A stretch of 64,000 bases of DNA from NCBI RefSeq assembly GCF_007741475.1, contig NZ_CP036261.1, positions 1,798,001-1,862,000 of the forward strand, in the 5' to 3' direction. The notes beneath the pieces were generated by a model. That model saw only the letters and a list, made by a program, of their open reading frames with translations, searched no databases and was not told where the DNA came from. Positions within the stretch are counted from its first letter, which is position 1; the number at the start of each line of letters is the position of its first letter. Origin of the DNA: Rosistilla ulvae (GTDB lineage: Bacteria; Planctomycetota; Planctomycetia; Pirellulales; Pirellulaceae). This document shows positions 9,716 to 16,163 of this stretch, piece after piece. The position numbers and the translations under genes were made by a program.

Positions 9716-10681
9716 TCAGCTAGCGATCCCATCGGCAACGGTTTGCAGAATCTGTTGGGTGTCGAGCGCCTGCTGATTCATCGCCGTGGCCGCGGTGGCG
9801 TTGCTGACCAGATCGGCAAAAGTGGCCAGCATCCGGGCTTCTTGGTTTCCGTCAAAGGTTTCGCTTTTGACGCTCCCAGCCCGGTCGTGGATCCAGAATC
9901 TTGCCGGCTTCGAAGGCCACGGACGGGTGAAGTCGTCGCAGACGATCGACGCCTGGTCGCCAGCGATTTCGAACCACTTCCGCGTCGCGGTGTCATAGGC
10001 ACAGTTCACCGTGGCGGTCAGGTCGTCGCCAAAGTCCAACAGGCTGCTGCTGCGAAACCAGATGCCCCGATCCTGCCGGCCGATCGATTGTACCGCGACC
10101 GGCAGACGGCCCGCCGCCCACCGCGCCATCCCGTACGCATACCAACCGAGATCCAACAGACAACCGCCGCCCAGTTCGGGGTTCAGCCGATGGTCGTCCG
10201 ATTGAAACGGTTCAAAAAACGAACAAGCGACGCTGATATGCTGCACTCGTCCGAGTTCGCCTGCGTCGATCGATTGCCGGATTCGATCGGTCCGCAGATG
10301 ATGCAGCCAAGCGGTTGCGTCGAGCCATTGCCGGCCGCGGTCGCGACAGCGTTGGTCGATCGCTTGAGCTTCGGCCAGCGTCATCGCAACCGGCTTTTCG
10401 ACGATCAGATGTTTGCCCGCATCGGCGGCGGCCAAGGCCCAGTCGTGATGCAGCGATGGGGGCAACGGGATATAGACCGCGTCGATACTGTCGCTGGCGA
10501 GCATTGCGTCGTAGCTGTCGAAGGCTTGAGCGATCCCGTACTGATCGGCGTACCAACGAGCCCGCGCGGGATCGCGACTGGCGATCCCCACGACTTGAAT
10601 CGCATCGACCGATTGCATATCGGCGACGATCCGCCGCGCGATCCGCGCCGTTCCCAAAACTCCAAAACGTAAAGCGTTCAA
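9716..10681 (-). CDS. Gfo/Idh/MocA family oxidoreductase
   Basis: A 321-residue NAD(P)-dependent sugar dehydrogenase-like protein. The N-terminal Rossmann fold starts FGVLGTARIARRI, and the conserved EKP motif lies in LIVEKPVAMTLAEAQ near residue 95. The C-terminal alpha/beta domain has GGGCLLDLGWYAYGMARW. There is no export signal, so it is probably cytoplasmic. The family oxidises or reduces sugars, inositols and related compounds; the substrate cannot be inferred. Convergent with the lipoprotein gene, with an 11-bp gap. Confidence 0.9.
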   Translation of the reverse strand: MNALRFGVLGTARIARRIVADMQSVDAIQVVGIASRDPARARWYADQYGIAQAFDSYDAMLASDSIDAVYIPLPPSLHHDWALAAADAGKHLIVEKPVAMTLAEAQAIDQRCRDRGRQWLDATAWLHHLRTDRIRQSIDAGELGRVQHISVACSFFEPFQSDDHRLNPELGGGCLLDLGWYAYGMARWAAGRLPVAVQSIGRQDRGIWFRSSSLLDFGDDLTATVNCAYDTATRKWFEIAGDQASIVCDDFTRPWPSKPARFWIHDRAGSVKSETFDGNQEARMLATFADLVSNATAATAMNQQALDTQQILQTVADGIAS

Positions 10682-10859
10682 GCGAAATATCCGATCCGCA
10701 AACCAAGCGGTTTGCGCAAATAAACAAATAGCGAAGCAACAGACCGCCGGAGTGCATGCCGGAGGAAATCTGTTTCAAAATAGGCGACGTGAGCGACTGA
10801 ACACCAGCCCAATGCCAGTTACTTCGATGGTTACGTACGGGCTGGGTGGGCAAAAACAG
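10682..10859. other. upstream region of the oxidoreductase
   Basis: 178 bp between the 5' end of the oxidoreductase gene and the repeat array. It should contain that gene's promoter; nothing specific was recognised. Confidence 0.3.
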
Positions 10860-11740
10860 AACTCTAATCTGCTCTAATCCACGCTGATCCAATTCAGGAA
10901 CCTTCGAGCGAGCAGAGGAACCAACAACTTCTCCTGGCACCTCGCCTTCGATCAGCGAAGATCAGTGGTTTCAATAACGGAACGCTAATCTGCTCTAATC
11001 CACGCTAATCCAATTCAGGAAACTTCGAGCGACCAGTGGAACCGACAACTTCGCCTGGCACCTCGCCTTCCATCAGCATCGATTAGCGAAGTTCAGCGGT
11101 TCAATAGCGGAACTCTAATCTGCTCTAATCCACGCTAATCCACGCTAATCCAATTCCGGAAACTTCGAGCGACCTGAGTAACCGACAACTTCTCCTGGCA
11201 CCTCGCCTTCCATCAGCGTCGATTGGCGAAGATCTGTGGTTTCAATAACGGAACGCTAATCCAATTCTGGAAATTTCGAGCGACCAGAGGAACCGACAAC
11301 TTCGTCTGGCACCTCGCCTTCGATCAGCGTCGATTAGCGAAGATCGGTGGTTTCAATAACGGAACGCTAATCTGCTCTAATCCAATTCCGGAAACTTCGA
11401 GCGACCAGAGGAACCGACAACTTCTCCTGGCACCTCGACCTCGATCAGCGTCGATTAGCGAAGATCTGTGGTTTCAATAACGGAACGCTAATCTGCTCTA
11501 ATCCACGCTAATCCAATTCCGGAAACTTCGAGCGACCAGAGGAACCGACAACTTCTCCTGGCACCTCGACCTCGATCAGCGTCGATTAGCGAAGATCTGT
11601 GGTTTCAATAACGGAACGCAAATCTGCTCTAATCCACGCTAATCCAATTCCGGAAACTTCGAGCGACCAGAGGAACCAAATAACTTCGCCTGGCAGCTCG
11701 CCTTCCATCAGCGTCGAGTCCTGAAGATCGGTGGTTTCAA
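10860..11740. repeat. tandem array of seven 111-141 bp units with nested 10-bp repeats
   Basis: Units begin with aac(g/t)ctaat at 10860, 10981, 11111, 11252, 11363, 11484 and 11615, and the last ends near 11740. Spacings are 121, 130, 141, 111, 121, 131 and about 126. The differences come mostly from 10-bp blocks of the type ctaatccacg or ctaatctgct: the fourth unit has none extra, the fifth one, the sixth and seventh two, the third three. The first unit lacks a different 10-bp block (gtcgattagc). The remainder, with gaaacttcgagcgacc and cctggcacctcg, is well conserved. No frame is open through it, so it is non-coding. Confidence 0.9.
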
Positions 11741-11837
11741 GCTGGCCATGCTCGCGAGGAAAGGGGCCTGGTCGCGTCGCGACACCGGGCTGGCAGCTTA
11801 TTCGACGATCGGTCATCATAAAAGCCAAGGAGCCCTC

Positions 11838-12059
11838 ATGAACCCGTCTGAATCGATGCAACAACAGATTAACAAGCTACAGGAAACCGTCGCGTTCCAG
11901 CAACGAACGATCGACCATTTTCAAGAAGCCTTATTGCAGATCCGCCGCGAATTGGACAACGCGACGCGGCAGCTGGAGCAGCAAAAAGGCCGCGTCCACT
12001 GGCTCTCGGAGAACATCGCCGGCGACAACCTGCCTCATGAGAAGCCGCCGCACTATTGA
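11838..12059 (+). CDS. SlyX-like coiled-coil protein
   Basis: A 73-residue protein from the ATG at 11838, preceded by AAGGAG. It is almost entirely a predicted coiled coil: INKLQETVAFQQRTIDHFQE followed by ALLQIRRELDNATRQLEQQK. The tail GDNLPHEKPPHY matches the SlyX family ending in a Pro-rich PPHY. SlyX proteins are small, cytoplasmic and of unclear function. It is convergent with the flagellar operon and separated from the array by about 100 bp. Confidence 0.85.
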   Translation: MNPSESMQQQINKLQETVAFQQRTIDHFQEALLQIRRELDNATRQLEQQKGRVHWLSENIAGDNLPHEKPPHY

Positions 12060-12083
12060 TGTTCGGCAACCGCTGGCGGCAAC

Positions 12084-12416
12084 CTATCCGCGACGGGAGA
12101 GTTGGAACAGTTCGAACATCGGGTCGGCGATCTGCGAAGCAGACGATTCGGTGATCTCGTCGACCATCACCTGATCCAACTGCTGTTGAAAGATCTCTTC
12201 GGCTTGGCCGCCGTGAAAGTAGGCGGCTTTGTCGTGCGTCTTGTGCATCGACGACATCAGTTCGCCAAACAGCGTCTTGCCGACGAAGTCGCGAAACAGC
12301 GTCTGCATCTCATCGGCCGGTGCGGCTTGCAAGGAATTGCCCGATTGCTGCAGATTCGACTTCGAATGCGCCGCCGCTTGGTTGGTAAGCGATTGATTAT
12401 GGATTCCGCTGATCAT
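12084..12416 (-). CDS. flgJ: flagellar rod-binding protein, FlgJ N-terminal type
   Basis: 110 residues with the rod-binding domain only: LFRDFVGKTLFGELMSSMHK then YFHGGQAEEIFQQQLDQVMV. It lacks the peptidoglycan hydrolase domain found at the C-terminus of enterobacterial FlgJ, so another enzyme must open the wall for the rod. The ATG overlaps the flgI stop (ATGA), so translation is probably coupled. Last gene of the flagellar operon here. Confidence 0.85.
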   Translation of the reverse strand: MISGIHNQSLTNQAAAHSKSNLQQSGNSLQAAPADEMQTLFRDFVGKTLFGELMSSMHKTHDKAAYFHGGQAEEIFQQQLDQVMVDEITESSASQIADPMFELFQLSRRG

Positions 12417-13516
12417 TGGAAGATCACATCTCCGTAAAGGTCGCCTTTGGTTTTCAAGGCTTTGATAATTGCGATCAGATCGTCGGTGGGAACTTCCAAC
12501 GCGTTGAGCGCATCGGCCAGATTCTTCAGCTTCGCGTTTTCGGCTTTGGGCGCCGCCGCATCGACCGGCACAAACCCCGGCCGCGCACCCGCTTCGATTC
12601 GTAGGTTGCGATGCGTGATCAGCACCGGCGCGATCCGCACCTCTTCGCCGATCACGACCACCCCTTCGCGTTCGTTGATCACGACGCGGGTGTCATTGTT
12701 GGGCAGCGCGACACGCAGCCCCAACAACAGCGAGATGAACGAGATCGGATTGTTTCGGTAGACCGGCGGTATGTCGACTTCGATATGTAATTGATCGATC
12801 GCACGAGCCACGGGGACACGAGCCGACGGATCGATCCCAGCCGATTCGCCGGTCAGCGGTTGTTCGCCTTGGCTGTTGATCGCATCTTCGATCCATTGCA
12901 CGGTGTCGAAGTCGGCGAAGTCGCGATCCAGGACCAATGTCAGCCTGCCGTTTTCATGAAACGGCGCCAGCAGCGAGCGCTCCATCTTCGCTCCCTGATG
13001 CACCATCGCGGAAGTTGGCGAATCGGGGTTTGAAATCCGCAGCGGCCCTTCGGCCATCGCGTAGACAGTCGGCTGATCGGCTCGCGGGCCCAACAGTGGC
13101 GAGAGCATCAGCGTTCCGCCCGCGAGACTCTTGGCTCCGATCGCGTTGACGGTACAGTCGAGTCGGTCGCCCTGCTGAGCTCCAACTTCGGGAACCCTCG
13201 CGGTGACAAACACCAACGCCACGTTCCCGGCTTGTTCGACATCGTCCAACATCAACTGGCCGCGTGGATCGGTCGAGATCTGGCCGCCCATCAATTGGAT
13301 CATCCGAGCCAACGCTTTGGCGGTCGGCTTGGCATCCGGATCGCCGGTCCCCTTGAGTCCGACGACCAGTCCAAGCCCCTGAACCGTCGTGATCTCTTGC
13401 CCCTTGATGCGGCAGATATCGCGCAGCTTCAGTTCTTCGGCGCTAGCAATAATGGCAAACGCCGTAAATATCGGCAGCATTGCAAGCGTTAGAGTTAGTC
13501 GCATGAGAGCTTTCAT
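12413..13516 (-). CDS. flgI: flagellar basal body P-ring protein FlgI
   Basis: 367 residues from the ATG at 13516, which has a GAGAA ribosome site and opens a signal peptide ending near ASAEE. Family segments: LRDICRIKGQEITTVQGLGL, VGLKGTGD, LARMIQLMGG, VFVTARVPEVGAQQGDRLDC and the C-terminal LNALEVPTDDLIAIIKALK. FlgI forms the periplasmic P ring around the rod and needs FlgA for assembly. An in-frame extension to 13594 exists but carries no leader. Its upstream neighbour is not flgH directly: a plus-strand gene pair sits between. Confidence 0.95.
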   Translation of the reverse strand: MKALMRLTLTLAMLPIFTAFAIIASAEELKLRDICRIKGQEITTVQGLGLVVGLKGTGDPDAKPTAKALARMIQLMGGQISTDPRGQLMLDDVEQAGNVALVFVTARVPEVGAQQGDRLDCTVNAIGAKSLAGGTLMLSPLLGPRADQPTVYAMAEGPLRISNPDSPTSAMVHQGAKMERSLLAPFHENGRLTLVLDRDFADFDTVQWIEDAINSQGEQPLTGESAGIDPSARVPVARAIDQLHIEVDIPPVYRNNPISFISLLLGLRVALPNNDTRVVINEREGVVVIGEEVRIAPVLITHRNLRIEAGARPGFVPVDAAAPKAENAKLKNLADALNALEVPTDDLIAIIKALKTKGDLYGDVIFQ

Positions 13517-13920
13517 GTTCTCGGTGATACGCAAAACTCTTCGACGGTTGCAATAGTCGTTCCATGATAAGCGTGACGTCAGGATCGAGAGCACCTGCTT
13601 CCATAGCTACGCACACCGTCTGAACCCATATGCCTCGCCACTACCCTCTCCCCCCGGTGGATTGCGTTCTGTTTGGCGGGCGGACGGCCACTCCGCAGTG
13701 GGGTTCGGGGAGGGACCGCGATGCGGGCCAGGGCGCCCCTGGGGTTGCCTTAGTGTGGGGTAATGCTTCCTTGGTGGGGTCACCATATTGACTAGTGCCT
13801 TTGGAGTGTTTATCGTGGGCGGGTATTCTCTGATGCGGCATTTTTATGGCCGTTTTCTGTGTAATTCCAACGTCGAAACGTCCTGGAAACGACACGTCAC
13901 CATTTACTTAAGGCCTAGCC
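13517..13920. other. intergenic region between flgI and the DUF1559 gene
   Basis: 404 bp between divergent genes. It should hold a promoter for flgI-flgJ, now separated from flgH, and for the DUF1559 gene (see 13788-13816). Nothing else was recognised. Confidence 0.4.
13788..13816 (+). promoter_or_regulatory. candidate sigma-70 promoter of the DUF1559 gene
   Basis: TTGACT at 13788-13793 and TATCGT at 13811-13816 with 17-bp spacing, about 105 bp upstream of the DUF1559 ATG. The -10 box is a partial match, so this is only a candidate. Confidence 0.3.
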
Positions 13921-14880
13921 ATGTTTGGTTTCCGACACAACCGATTGAACAGCCGCGGTTTTACGCTGGTTGAATTGCTGGTTGTCATTGCGATCATCGG
14001 TATTCTTGTCGGACTATTGCTGCCAGCTGTTCAAGCGGCTCGCGAAGCGGCTCGCCGGATGCAGTGTTCGAACAATATTAAACAGATCGGATTGGCGGTT
14101 CATAACTACCACGACACCTTCAAAACATTTCCGCCTGGAGCGCTCCTGCCAGGTACCAACTGTAATACCGTTGCACCTTCGGAGCCGATCATGAATCACA
14201 CGGCATACCAGATGTTGTTGCCGTTTCTGGAACTCAACAATTTGTATGAGAAGTTCAATTTCAGTCTGCCAAGTGGAAAATCGTTATATGTCGGTGCCAA
14301 CGGTTGTGCCGCTGCGACACCAACCACAGATCAATTGGCCTTAGTAACCAGTCCCGTGGCCGCGTTTTTGTGTCCTTCGGATCCGGGACCAGAACAGGGG
14401 GATGACAACCATTCATTTTCGATGGCAAAAACTGCCTATCGAACGAGTTACGCATTAGTGTCGCATCAAAATGACCCTTCCTGGACCAAGTCGTGGAAAG
14501 CAGAGACCCATCCTGCAAAAGGTGTCTGGGGCCCCAATGGAGCCGCACGTTTCCGCGACATCACCGATGGCACTAGCAACACATGTGCGATTGTCGAAGC
14601 TCCGTTGCAAAAGAAAGGTGGGGAAAAGTGGAATGGACCCTATTGGAACACTTACACCTATACCTACTGGGCCGTCATCTATAATCGTGGTCTGAACGTG
14701 ATTGTTGCTGATACGCCGCCAGGCGTCACTCGCAACGGTGCTGGCAGCTCGCATGTCAGCGGGGCGATGATCATGCTGTGCGATGGTTCGGTGCGATTCC
14801 TAAGTGAGAACGTCGATCAAATCGGCGTCCTAAACGCGTTGGTATCCGCGCGTGGTGGAGAGGTTCTCGCGTCCTTTTAG
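13921..14880 (+). CDS. DUF1559 domain protein with type IV prepilin-like N-terminus
   Basis: 319 residues. The N-terminus has the prepilin methylation motif and hydrophobic helix: SRGFTLVELLVVIAIIGILV at about residues 10-29. Then LLPAVQAAREAARRMQC and the SNNIKQIGLAVHNYHDTFKTFP segment define the DUF1559 (SBP_bac_10-like) family, which is hugely expanded in planctomycetes. The C-terminus has the typical H-x9-DGSVRFLSENVD ending. Probably processed by a prepilin peptidase and exported; function unknown. It lies inside the flagellar operon on the opposite strand and looks A/T-richer than its neighbours. Confidence 0.92.
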   Translation: MFGFRHNRLNSRGFTLVELLVVIAIIGILVGLLLPAVQAAREAARRMQCSNNIKQIGLAVHNYHDTFKTFPPGALLPGTNCNTVAPSEPIMNHTAYQMLLPFLELNNLYEKFNFSLPSGKSLYVGANGCAAATPTTDQLALVTSPVAAFLCPSDPGPEQGDDNHSFSMAKTAYRTSYALVSHQNDPSWTKSWKAETHPAKGVWGPNGAARFRDITDGTSNTCAIVEAPLQKKGGEKWNGPYWNTYTYTYWAVIYNRGLNVIVADTPPGVTRNGAGSSHVSGAMIMLCDGSVRFLSENVDQIGVLNALVSARGGEVLASF

Positions 14881-14939
14881 GTCTTATTTAGCCTTGCTGC
14901 AAATCTGTTCGCACATCGTCCCATTCTGGATTTAGCTTG

Positions 14940-15347
14940 ATGAAGTTCCCGATTGTTACTGCGTTTCCGTTTCTCTGTGCTCTAACTTTGATCGCGGGAT
15001 GTTCAGGCCCGCCTTCGGATCAGCCCGATTTGGGCCAGGTCACGGGCGTCGTTACTCTAGATGGTGAGCCATTGCCCGCTGCACAAATTGTTTTTCAACC
15101 GACCGAAGGACGCGCTTCGAATGGACTGACCGATGCGGAGGGTAACTACGTCTTGGACTTTAATCTCGATACGCCAGGAGCCAAAGTTGGATCACATCAG
15201 GTGAGGATCACGACCTTTTCCGAGGTCGATCCTAGCCAAGAGCCAACGCCTGAACTACTGCCGGCGAAGTACCATTCCAAGACGGAGCTAACCGCTACGG
15301 TTGCTGCGGGTGACAACGAAATTCCGTTTGATCTGCAATCTAAGTAA
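14940..15347 (+). CDS. lipoprotein with carboxypeptidase-regulatory-like domain
   Basis: 135 residues from the ATG at 14940. The leader ends in the lipobox TLIAGC (about Cys22). The body VTGVVTLDGEPLPAAQIVFQ, then the TDAEGNYVLDF part, is the transthyretin/carboxypeptidase-regulatory-like beta-sandwich that very often follows DUF1559 genes in planctomycetes. The 59-bp gap suggests one transcript with the DUF1559 gene. Role unknown; probably an envelope partner of that protein. Confidence 0.85.
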   Translation: MKFPIVTAFPFLCALTLIAGCSGPPSDQPDLGQVTGVVTLDGEPLPAAQIVFQPTEGRASNGLTDAEGNYVLDFNLDTPGAKVGSHQVRITTFSEVDPSQEPTPELLPAKYHSKTELTATVAAGDNEIPFDLQSK

Positions 15348-15368
15348 CCATTGACGAGTTGGCGAACT

Positions 15369-16163
15369 TTAGAACGGTTGCAGCGTTTCGAACCAACGCG
15401 TGAACCAACCGCGTTTGTAGCCGTCTCGCATCCGGCCGCGATCGTTTTTGCGGATTTGCAGATCCAGCAGATCGCGGCTGAGGACGACGTTGTCCGGCCC
15501 GATGTCCTCGCTGCGGCAGGTGCCCGAGAGGAACGTCTCCCAGACGTTTTCATTCACGTACATCGTCTTGTGAGCTTCGACGACCAAGTTGCCGTTGGGG
15601 CGAATGTCGACGACGCGGGCGGCGATGTTAAACGACAGCGCCTCGCGACTCTCGATCTCCGAATCGGCCCGATACAAACTGTTGACGGTCCCTTGCAGAC
15701 GGAGATCGCCACCTTCATGCGTATCGGGCTGAAGTTTGCCACCGCGAAGATTGATCCAGTCTTTTAGAAGCGTGTCGTACAATCCGTTCTTTCGCGTCGA
15801 GGCGGAGCCCTCGGCTTGAACGCGGGCGATTTCATCGACACGGATCGTGACGATGTCGTTCATCTGCAACGTGCGTGTGGGAGGTGGCGGGATGTAGGTC
15901 CAACTGGCCGATTGCAATCCCAACGGCGCATCGTAACGCTGAGTGTATTGGGCGCCAGCAGCCTGCGATGGAGCGGCACGAGAGGGATCAGGCGCCGCCG
16001 CGCCGCGATCATAGGGATCGCTGTTTTGATTCGACGGCGGCGCGATATCTTCGGTCCCAATTCCCGATTGAACTTGGGGGAATGGATTTTCTTGAGCTAC
16101 CGCTACGGCAGCGCAACCCAACAGCAAACCGACAAACCACGTCGATGAGATGGCTTTGAGCAT
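15369..16163 (-). CDS. flgH: flagellar basal body L-ring protein FlgH
   Basis: 264 residues. The leader VGLLLGC could be a lipobox (Cys17), as expected for the outer-membrane lipoprotein of the L ring. An unusual Pro/Gln/Ala-rich insert (about 25-80) precedes the conserved core: MNDIVTIRVDEIARVQAEGS, FNIAARVVDIRPNGNLVVEA, and GTCRSEDIGPDNVVLSRDLL. It follows flgA with a 62-bp gap. The gene after it should be flgI but is interrupted by a convergent gene pair. Confidence 0.93.
   Translation of the reverse strand: MLKAISSTWFVGLLLGCAAVAVAQENPFPQVQSGIGTEDIAPPSNQNSDPYDRGAAAPDPSRAAPSQAAGAQYTQRYDAPLGLQSASWTYIPPPPTRTLQMNDIVTIRVDEIARVQAEGSASTRKNGLYDTLLKDWINLRGGKLQPDTHEGGDLRLQGTVNSLYRADSEIESREALSFNIAARVVDIRPNGNLVVEAHKTMYVNENVWETFLSGTCRSEDIGPDNVVLSRDLLDLQIRKNDRGRMRDGYKRGWFTRWFETLQPF

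Follow-up and report, generated by a model that had tools for sequence, protein, structure and literature searches.

A seven-unit octamer array in Rosistilla ulvae, probably a gene-less derivative of an element with inverted arms around a GxxExxY gene

The window analyzed here is a stretch of 64,000 nucleotides from the genome of Rosistilla ulvae, which consists of one contig of 7,475,804 bp. Between two divergent genes, one for a Gfo/Idh/MocA oxidoreductase and one that the first-pass annotation called SlyX-like and that does match the SlyX family, the window carries a tandem array of seven units at about 10862-11740 (Table 1). The array is real, as octamer counts, core anchors and the tandem-repeat finder TRF agree: TRF, a check that had been proposed for this region, returned overlapping arrays with periods of 140, 111 and 131 and 84-91% matches. 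The array also matches itself at 0.486 (shift 121) and 0.470 (shift 131), whereas 200 mononucleotide shuffles reached 0.30 at most. Each unit is made up of an arm, a spacer, an arm and a loop, and each contains a palindrome in which a left arm of octamers like GATTAGCG (GATYAGYG), set at steps of one helical turn, is followed by a 15-bp loop and a right arm of inverted octamers. The spacers, of about 58 bp, are homologous, with mutual identities of 64-100% (mean 84%), and their core occurs in seven copies, starting at 10891, 11012, 11152, 11263, 11384, 11515 and 11646.

The spacing of the units follows a simple law. Core-to-core distances are 121, 140, 111, 121, 131 and 131, and since 2 bp follow every octamer, a 10-bp block corresponds to one octamer plus a 2-bp linker. 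Counting the octamers in the left (nL) and right (nR) arms gives a spacing of 71 + 10(nL+nR) in all six intervals, the lone deviation being a 1-bp loop deletion that turns 141 into 140, so that every 10-bp step is one complete octamer block. The first-pass annotation was thus right in describing nested 10-bp blocks that are gained or lost, with minisatellite-like changes of length by whole blocks. Its spacings of 130, 141, 111, 121 and 131 were recovered when the loop was used as the anchor, whereas its last value, of about 126, was not.

Table 1. Coordinates, within the window, of the array, its parts and the flanking genes.
Feature	Coordinates	Strand	Basis
Tandem array, seven units	10862..11740	+	TRF, core anchors, octamer count
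Right arm 1, 3 octamers, CRCTRATC type	10862..10889	+	octamer scan
Spacer 1 (core recurs six more times)	10891..10948	+	core comparison
Left arm 1, 2 octamers, GATYAGYG type	10950..10967	+	octamer scan
Right arm 2, 3 octamers	10983..11010	+	octamer scan
Left arm 2, 3 octamers, two degenerate	11071..11098	+	octamer scan
Right arm 3, 4 octamers	11113..11150	+	octamer scan
Left arm 3, 3 octamers	11211..11238	+	octamer scan
Right arm 4, 1 octamer	11254..11261	+	octamer scan
Left arm 4, 3 octamers	11322..11349	+	octamer scan
Right arm 5, 2 octamers	11365..11382	+	octamer scan
Left arm 5, 3 octamers	11443..11470	+	octamer scan
Right arm 6, 3 octamers	11486..11513	+	octamer scan
Left arm 6, 3 octamers	11574..11601	+	octamer scan
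Right arm 7, 3 octamers	11617..11644	+	octamer scan
Left arm 7, 1 octamer above scan threshold, into truncated loop; array end	11726..11740	+	octamer scan
SlyX gene, flanking host context outside the element	11838..12059	+	PF04102, E 3.7e-13
Gfo/Idh/MocA oxidoreductase gene, flanking host context outside the element	9716..10681	-	PF01408, E 7.6e-26
Stretch that two congeners lack at this site	10725..11759	.	blastn and junction alignment with L259 (G002), L260 (G001)

Beyond slyX, at 12084-16163, minus-strand genes for a flagellar rod-binding protein, FlgI and FlgH are split by a plus-strand pair, which encodes a DUF1559 prepilin-like protein (13921-14880) and a small lipoprotein-like ORF (14937-15347).

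In two congeners the flanks of the array align at 96.6-97.0% (G002) and 93.2-93.6% (G001), and about 1 kb with the array is missing. The junctions are blurred, and the insertion proper probably covers about 10741-11757. By parsimony only, one gain at this site would be simpler than two losses, because the genome of the window is nearer to G002. Spacers within the array diverge more than the flanks do between species, which suggests that the array may predate its arrival and may have reached this site ready-formed.

The same genome holds four sister arrays (C1:2295023-2296367, 2713200-2713723, 3548467-3549115 and 7286548-7287640), which resemble the array of the window at 64-73% over longer matches and at up to 85% over short ones, and whose neighbours are unrelated genes. 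One arm of the sister array at 7286548-7287640 has grown to about 11 octamers, repeated as decamers (L017:5899-6006).

To follow the octamers across genomes, we used a module pattern in which a gap separates two left octamers from one right octamer, with the reversed pattern as control. Of the 241 genomes of the family, 31 had the module (29 of the 159 of good quality) and none had the control; both other genomes of the window's genus lacked the pattern. A conserved core, whose absence from related genomes the first-pass annotation had named as evidence against its reading, is thus found in relatives. A stricter pattern, searched in 84,980 named species, matched 12 stretches, all with planctomycete titles and including Rhodopirellula solitaria and Rubripirellula obstinata. 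Arms nearly always have three octamers, and 22 representatives of 61 distinct 3+3 elements have loops of 15-37 bp and linker lengths that are symmetric in 20 of the 22. Arms also face outward (eight copies in G055 and three others) or inward at about 245 bp, and arm pairs are found as direct repeats as well. In another genome (G192; L117-L119) the module is flanked by other hairpin repeats, whose ends are CGACGAACG / GTTCGTCG, and the arrangement is cassette-like. A literature search with the repeat words returned primer matches only.

The linkers differ from the octamers in how they have been kept. Among the 22 representatives, inner linkers of the two arms are complementary at 13 of 44 positions (shuffled mean 14.1) and outer linkers at 25 of 47 (shuffled mean 23.6); over all 61 elements, pairing of the inner linkers falls below that of shuffles (23 of 122, mean 37.1). 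Of ten pairing tests, a single one exceeded shuffles, that of the middle octamers over all 61 elements (421 against 409.7, P 0.013), an excess that is not seen among the representatives. Kept octamers with non-complementary linkers would agree better with words that a protein binds at intervals of one helical turn than with a folded hairpin, which lends support to the earlier suggestion of repeated protein-binding sites.

In one genus (G185, G186, G187 and G190) a 192-bp MITE, bounded by terminal repeats TTTTTRTACCCCACATCT, contains the module, and a 1,564-bp element whose ends are almost those of the MITE encodes a DDE transposase and has no octamer module. This larger element, with ends TTTTTATACCCCACAACT, is found at L147:342-1905 (G187:C28:39841-41404), and the module-bearing MITEs lie between copies of another palindrome, e.g. 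GGCTTCTAGCC. On this layout, the octamer module is cargo of the MITE in this genus and is spread there by another enzyme. An IS4-like transposase was rejected as the general mover, as it accounts for one genus only.

The first-pass annotation left the array otherwise unexplained, a description that proved incomplete, since the array does not stand alone: not only is the array absent from two congeners, but elsewhere the same arms bound a nuclease-like gene of the GxxExxY protein family (PF13366/TIGR04256, PDDEXK_3), no member of which lies inside the window. For instance, four arm pairs in G073 enclose decayed copies of a PF13366 gene. GxxExxY genes were found in 18 of 18 genomes searched (72 rows), most of which had been picked for carrying arms. 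GATTAG arms were present at 10 of 30 fetched PF13366 loci, as against none of 300 block shuffles; nine of these ten genes form one clade, and at the tenth (L203) the arms lie outside the arms of another word. With one member of the clade as query, matches at E 1e-25 were obtained in 43 of the 241 family genomes. Among the best 30 loci of this cognate clade, arms lie near the gene in 29 (28 of the 29 scanned, plus L253), and at the sole locus without them (L249) the contig ends just after the gene. An inward-facing arm pair lies within 150 bp of both gene ends at 10 of 29 cognate loci, and L234, L236, L243, L256 and L258 are cognate loci inside tandem arrays like that of the window. The cognate gene is carried by 18 of the 31 arm-bearing genomes, compared with 25 of the other 210 in the family (Fisher 4.6e-8). 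From 14 of the 31, no cognate gene was obtained at E 1e-25, and of the 25 genomes with the gene and without the pattern, fourteen or fewer may hold arms that the strict pattern missed.

The autonomous unit, of about 500 bp, consists of a three-octamer arm, about 36 bp, the GxxExxY gene, about 15 bp and an inverted arm; GxxExxY is the only gene inside it, and at the nine loci measured the upstream arm lies 25-42 bp from the start codon. An alignment of 16 proteins has invariant E25, D65, E75, K77, Q89 and Y93, that is, the E, D, ExK and QxxxY that mark RecB-type PD-(D/E)XK nucleases, with a catalytic role presumed by analogy. A search for relatives of solved structure found none, and a predicted model from the single sequence was too poor to use (mean pLDDT 44).

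We compared six solo arm-gene-arm copies from different genomes, pairwise and in both directions (30 comparisons), and left out the orthologous loci of one genus, whose flanks are shared over long stretches. In 20 of the 30 comparisons, homology stops no more than 5 bp from the outer octamers at the left and the right end alike (left 22, right 28); past the outer octamers homology runs never exceed 17 bp, and the remaining misses stop short inside. The arms are therefore the ends of the unit, and copies at different loci have defined inverted ends in common, as MITEs and insertion sequences do. Inspection by eye found no consistent target-site duplication at solo copies, and the junction in the window is blurred. 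A phage origin was rejected: the strict pattern had no match in IMG/VR, and there were no close protein relatives and no phage records, with two distant relatives in IMG/VR.

The genome of the window carries one gene of the cognate clade, at C1:2712616-2712960, which is intact and adjoins a sister array (L016). A second GxxExxY gene belongs to another clade, has another word and is accompanied by its own tandem array of palindromic units of about 131 bp (L190:1900-2234, L192:1900-2876), with 2.6 copies in the genome of the window and about 7 at the same locus in G001. As read from these two genomes, there is between-species copy-number change beside this gene. The flanks of the PS decarboxylase gene in congeners gave no second readable empty site, homology ending inside the gene.

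Other GxxExxY clades have inverted repeats of other iterated words, e.g. CACGAAGG, CACGAATC and CGCGGAGA. By an inverted-repeat alignment score, 15 of 27 GxxExxY loci pass, as against 0 of 16 PS decarboxylase loci, which come from 11 of 18 genomes and whose flanks start at the domain match and not at the gene end (Fisher 1.5e-4). Several GxxExxY loci are mutually orthologous (L183/L184, L190/L192, L193/L194). The 12 GxxExxY loci below the threshold include five of the cognate clade that do have arms. In a tree of 50 proteins, the 25 with CTAATC-type arms form one clade (98/98), with 0 of 500 shuffles as low, though 16 of these 25 genes, all beyond the first nine, came from homology to that clade. 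A period test of 14 arms gave P below 0.05 in only 8, because the steps mix 8-11 bp. Outside the planctomycetes, 5 of 11 GxxExxY loci pass against their own shuffles and six do not; the passing loci belong to Bacteroides finegoldii, Bernardetia, two IMG/VR contigs and Gemmatirosa, in which 3+3 palindromes flank the gene on either side. A plasmid record from Sphingomonas (L277:1495-1923) has fabD and fabG on either side of a GxxExxY gene; a word iterated three times stands immediately 5' of the start of this gene, and downstream there is no matching arm.

Across the genomes compared, then, we show that arms bound the gene, that gene-less arm pairs are both dispersed and in tandem, and that the arm word follows the GxxExxY clade. 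We consider it probable that the array of the window is a gene-less tandem derivative of a mobile-type arm-gene-arm element, and we infer that its spread was driven by GxxExxY. At each helical turn the protein would bind one octamer of its own element, and it would cut or nick at the arms, so that arm pairs become dispersed. Repair after cutting or nicking would let arrays expand and contract, and single octamers (10 bp) would be gained or lost by slippage or unequal exchange with helical phase kept. More tentatively, as a serious possibility, this may be a new class of bacterial selfish system, in which a lone RecB-type PD-(D/E)XK GxxExxY protein recognizes an element-specific word, present three times per inverted arm at steps of 8-11 bp, disperses arm pairs and gives rise to arrays, and in which the word recognized changes from one protein clade to another in several phyla.

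An ordinary minisatellite, built by slippage and unequal crossing-over with no function and no enzyme, would account for the whole-block length changes, the spacers of 64-100% identity (mean 84%) and the sister-array arm of about 11 decamers. It is nevertheless unlikely, given that other genera and families have the same octamers, likewise arranged 3+3, and that the arms bound a specific gene clade; slippage may still account for the copy changes. The octamers could also be sites for a host regulator or a self-repressing GxxExxY protein, with the array regulating SlyX or its divergent neighbour. The divergent promoter region, the helical phase of octamers with non-complementary linkers and the closeness of the upstream arm to the start codon (25-42 bp at nine loci) are consistent with this reading, which we nonetheless judge improbable: two congeners lack the array at this site, sister arrays adjoin unrelated genes, presence is patchy, and the downstream inverted arms are left unaccounted for. 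The arms are inverted, and attC systems act on hairpins, as do REP systems (PMC8266576). A folded single strand (REP-like, attC-like or RNA) as the functional form is nevertheless highly improbable, and both hairpin selection and an RNA family were rejected, since linkers and octamer variants of the 22 representatives pair no more than shuffles and Rfam 15 gave no match at E up to 1 in 10600-12100 and none at the gathering threshold in L230, L245, L265 and L190.

Among known systems, the REPtron is the nearest in logic to the arm-gene-arm element. As described in PMC8266576 and PMC3733652, one enzyme gene (TnpAREP/RAYT) lies between inverted palindromes, many gene-less palindromes lie elsewhere, singly or clustered, and enzyme and repeat co-vary. 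The likeness is one enzyme gene flanked by palindromes. The REPtron enzyme is of the HUH type, whereas the PD-(D/E)XK-type GxxExxY protein and its repeats are unrelated to it: no HUH domain, the mark of the REPtron Y1 transposase, is reported in the flanked gene (PF13366/TIGR04256), and no GTAG or CGTC tag, as in REP, was seen by eye at the palindrome foot. REP palindromes are self-complementary, whereas here iterated octamers stand in duplex-like phase with unpaired linkers. BrickBuilt of Porphyromonas gingivalis, described in PMC4596501 as an intergenic MITE with inverted ends and a 23-nt unit inside in variable repeat number, is alike in being intergenic and in those ends and that variability; its repeats lie inside the MITE, whereas here the ends consist of the repeat words themselves and there is an autonomous arm-gene-arm form. 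No known transposase class (DDE, HUH, serine or tyrosine recombinase) was found inside the arm-bounded unit. The 23S rRNA intervening sequence with the S23 ORF, a short selfish element with one small ORF according to PMC4990558, sits in an rRNA gene, whereas the element of the window is intergenic and its partner gene is of a different family. A CRISPR array has near-identical repeats and unique spacers, unlike the mutually similar spacers here, and in comparison with an integron attC array, units of 111-140 bp with homologous spacers of about 58 bp leave no room for cassettes.

Mechanism aside, the array and its partner element appear categorically new among known kinds, because both enzyme and repeats differ from those of the REPtron. 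The term GxxExxY, which occurs in PMC8934634, is rare in the literature searched, and the proteins are annotated in several phyla yet little studied; we found no description of flanking iterated arms of GxxExxY genes in the non-subscription, non-preprint literature searched. Tying this family to DNA words of its own would provide its first testable substrate and a natural set of protein-word pairs with changed specificity. If the GxxExxY protein moves the arms, this would be a mobile element run by an enzyme fold for which, to our knowledge, no such role is known. The link between arms and gene would also account for a class of puzzling iterated palindromes, and the new class, if true, would cover many of the iterated palindromes that environmental bacteria carry, of the CACGAAGG, CACAGAGG, CGCAAAGA and CACTAATC types.
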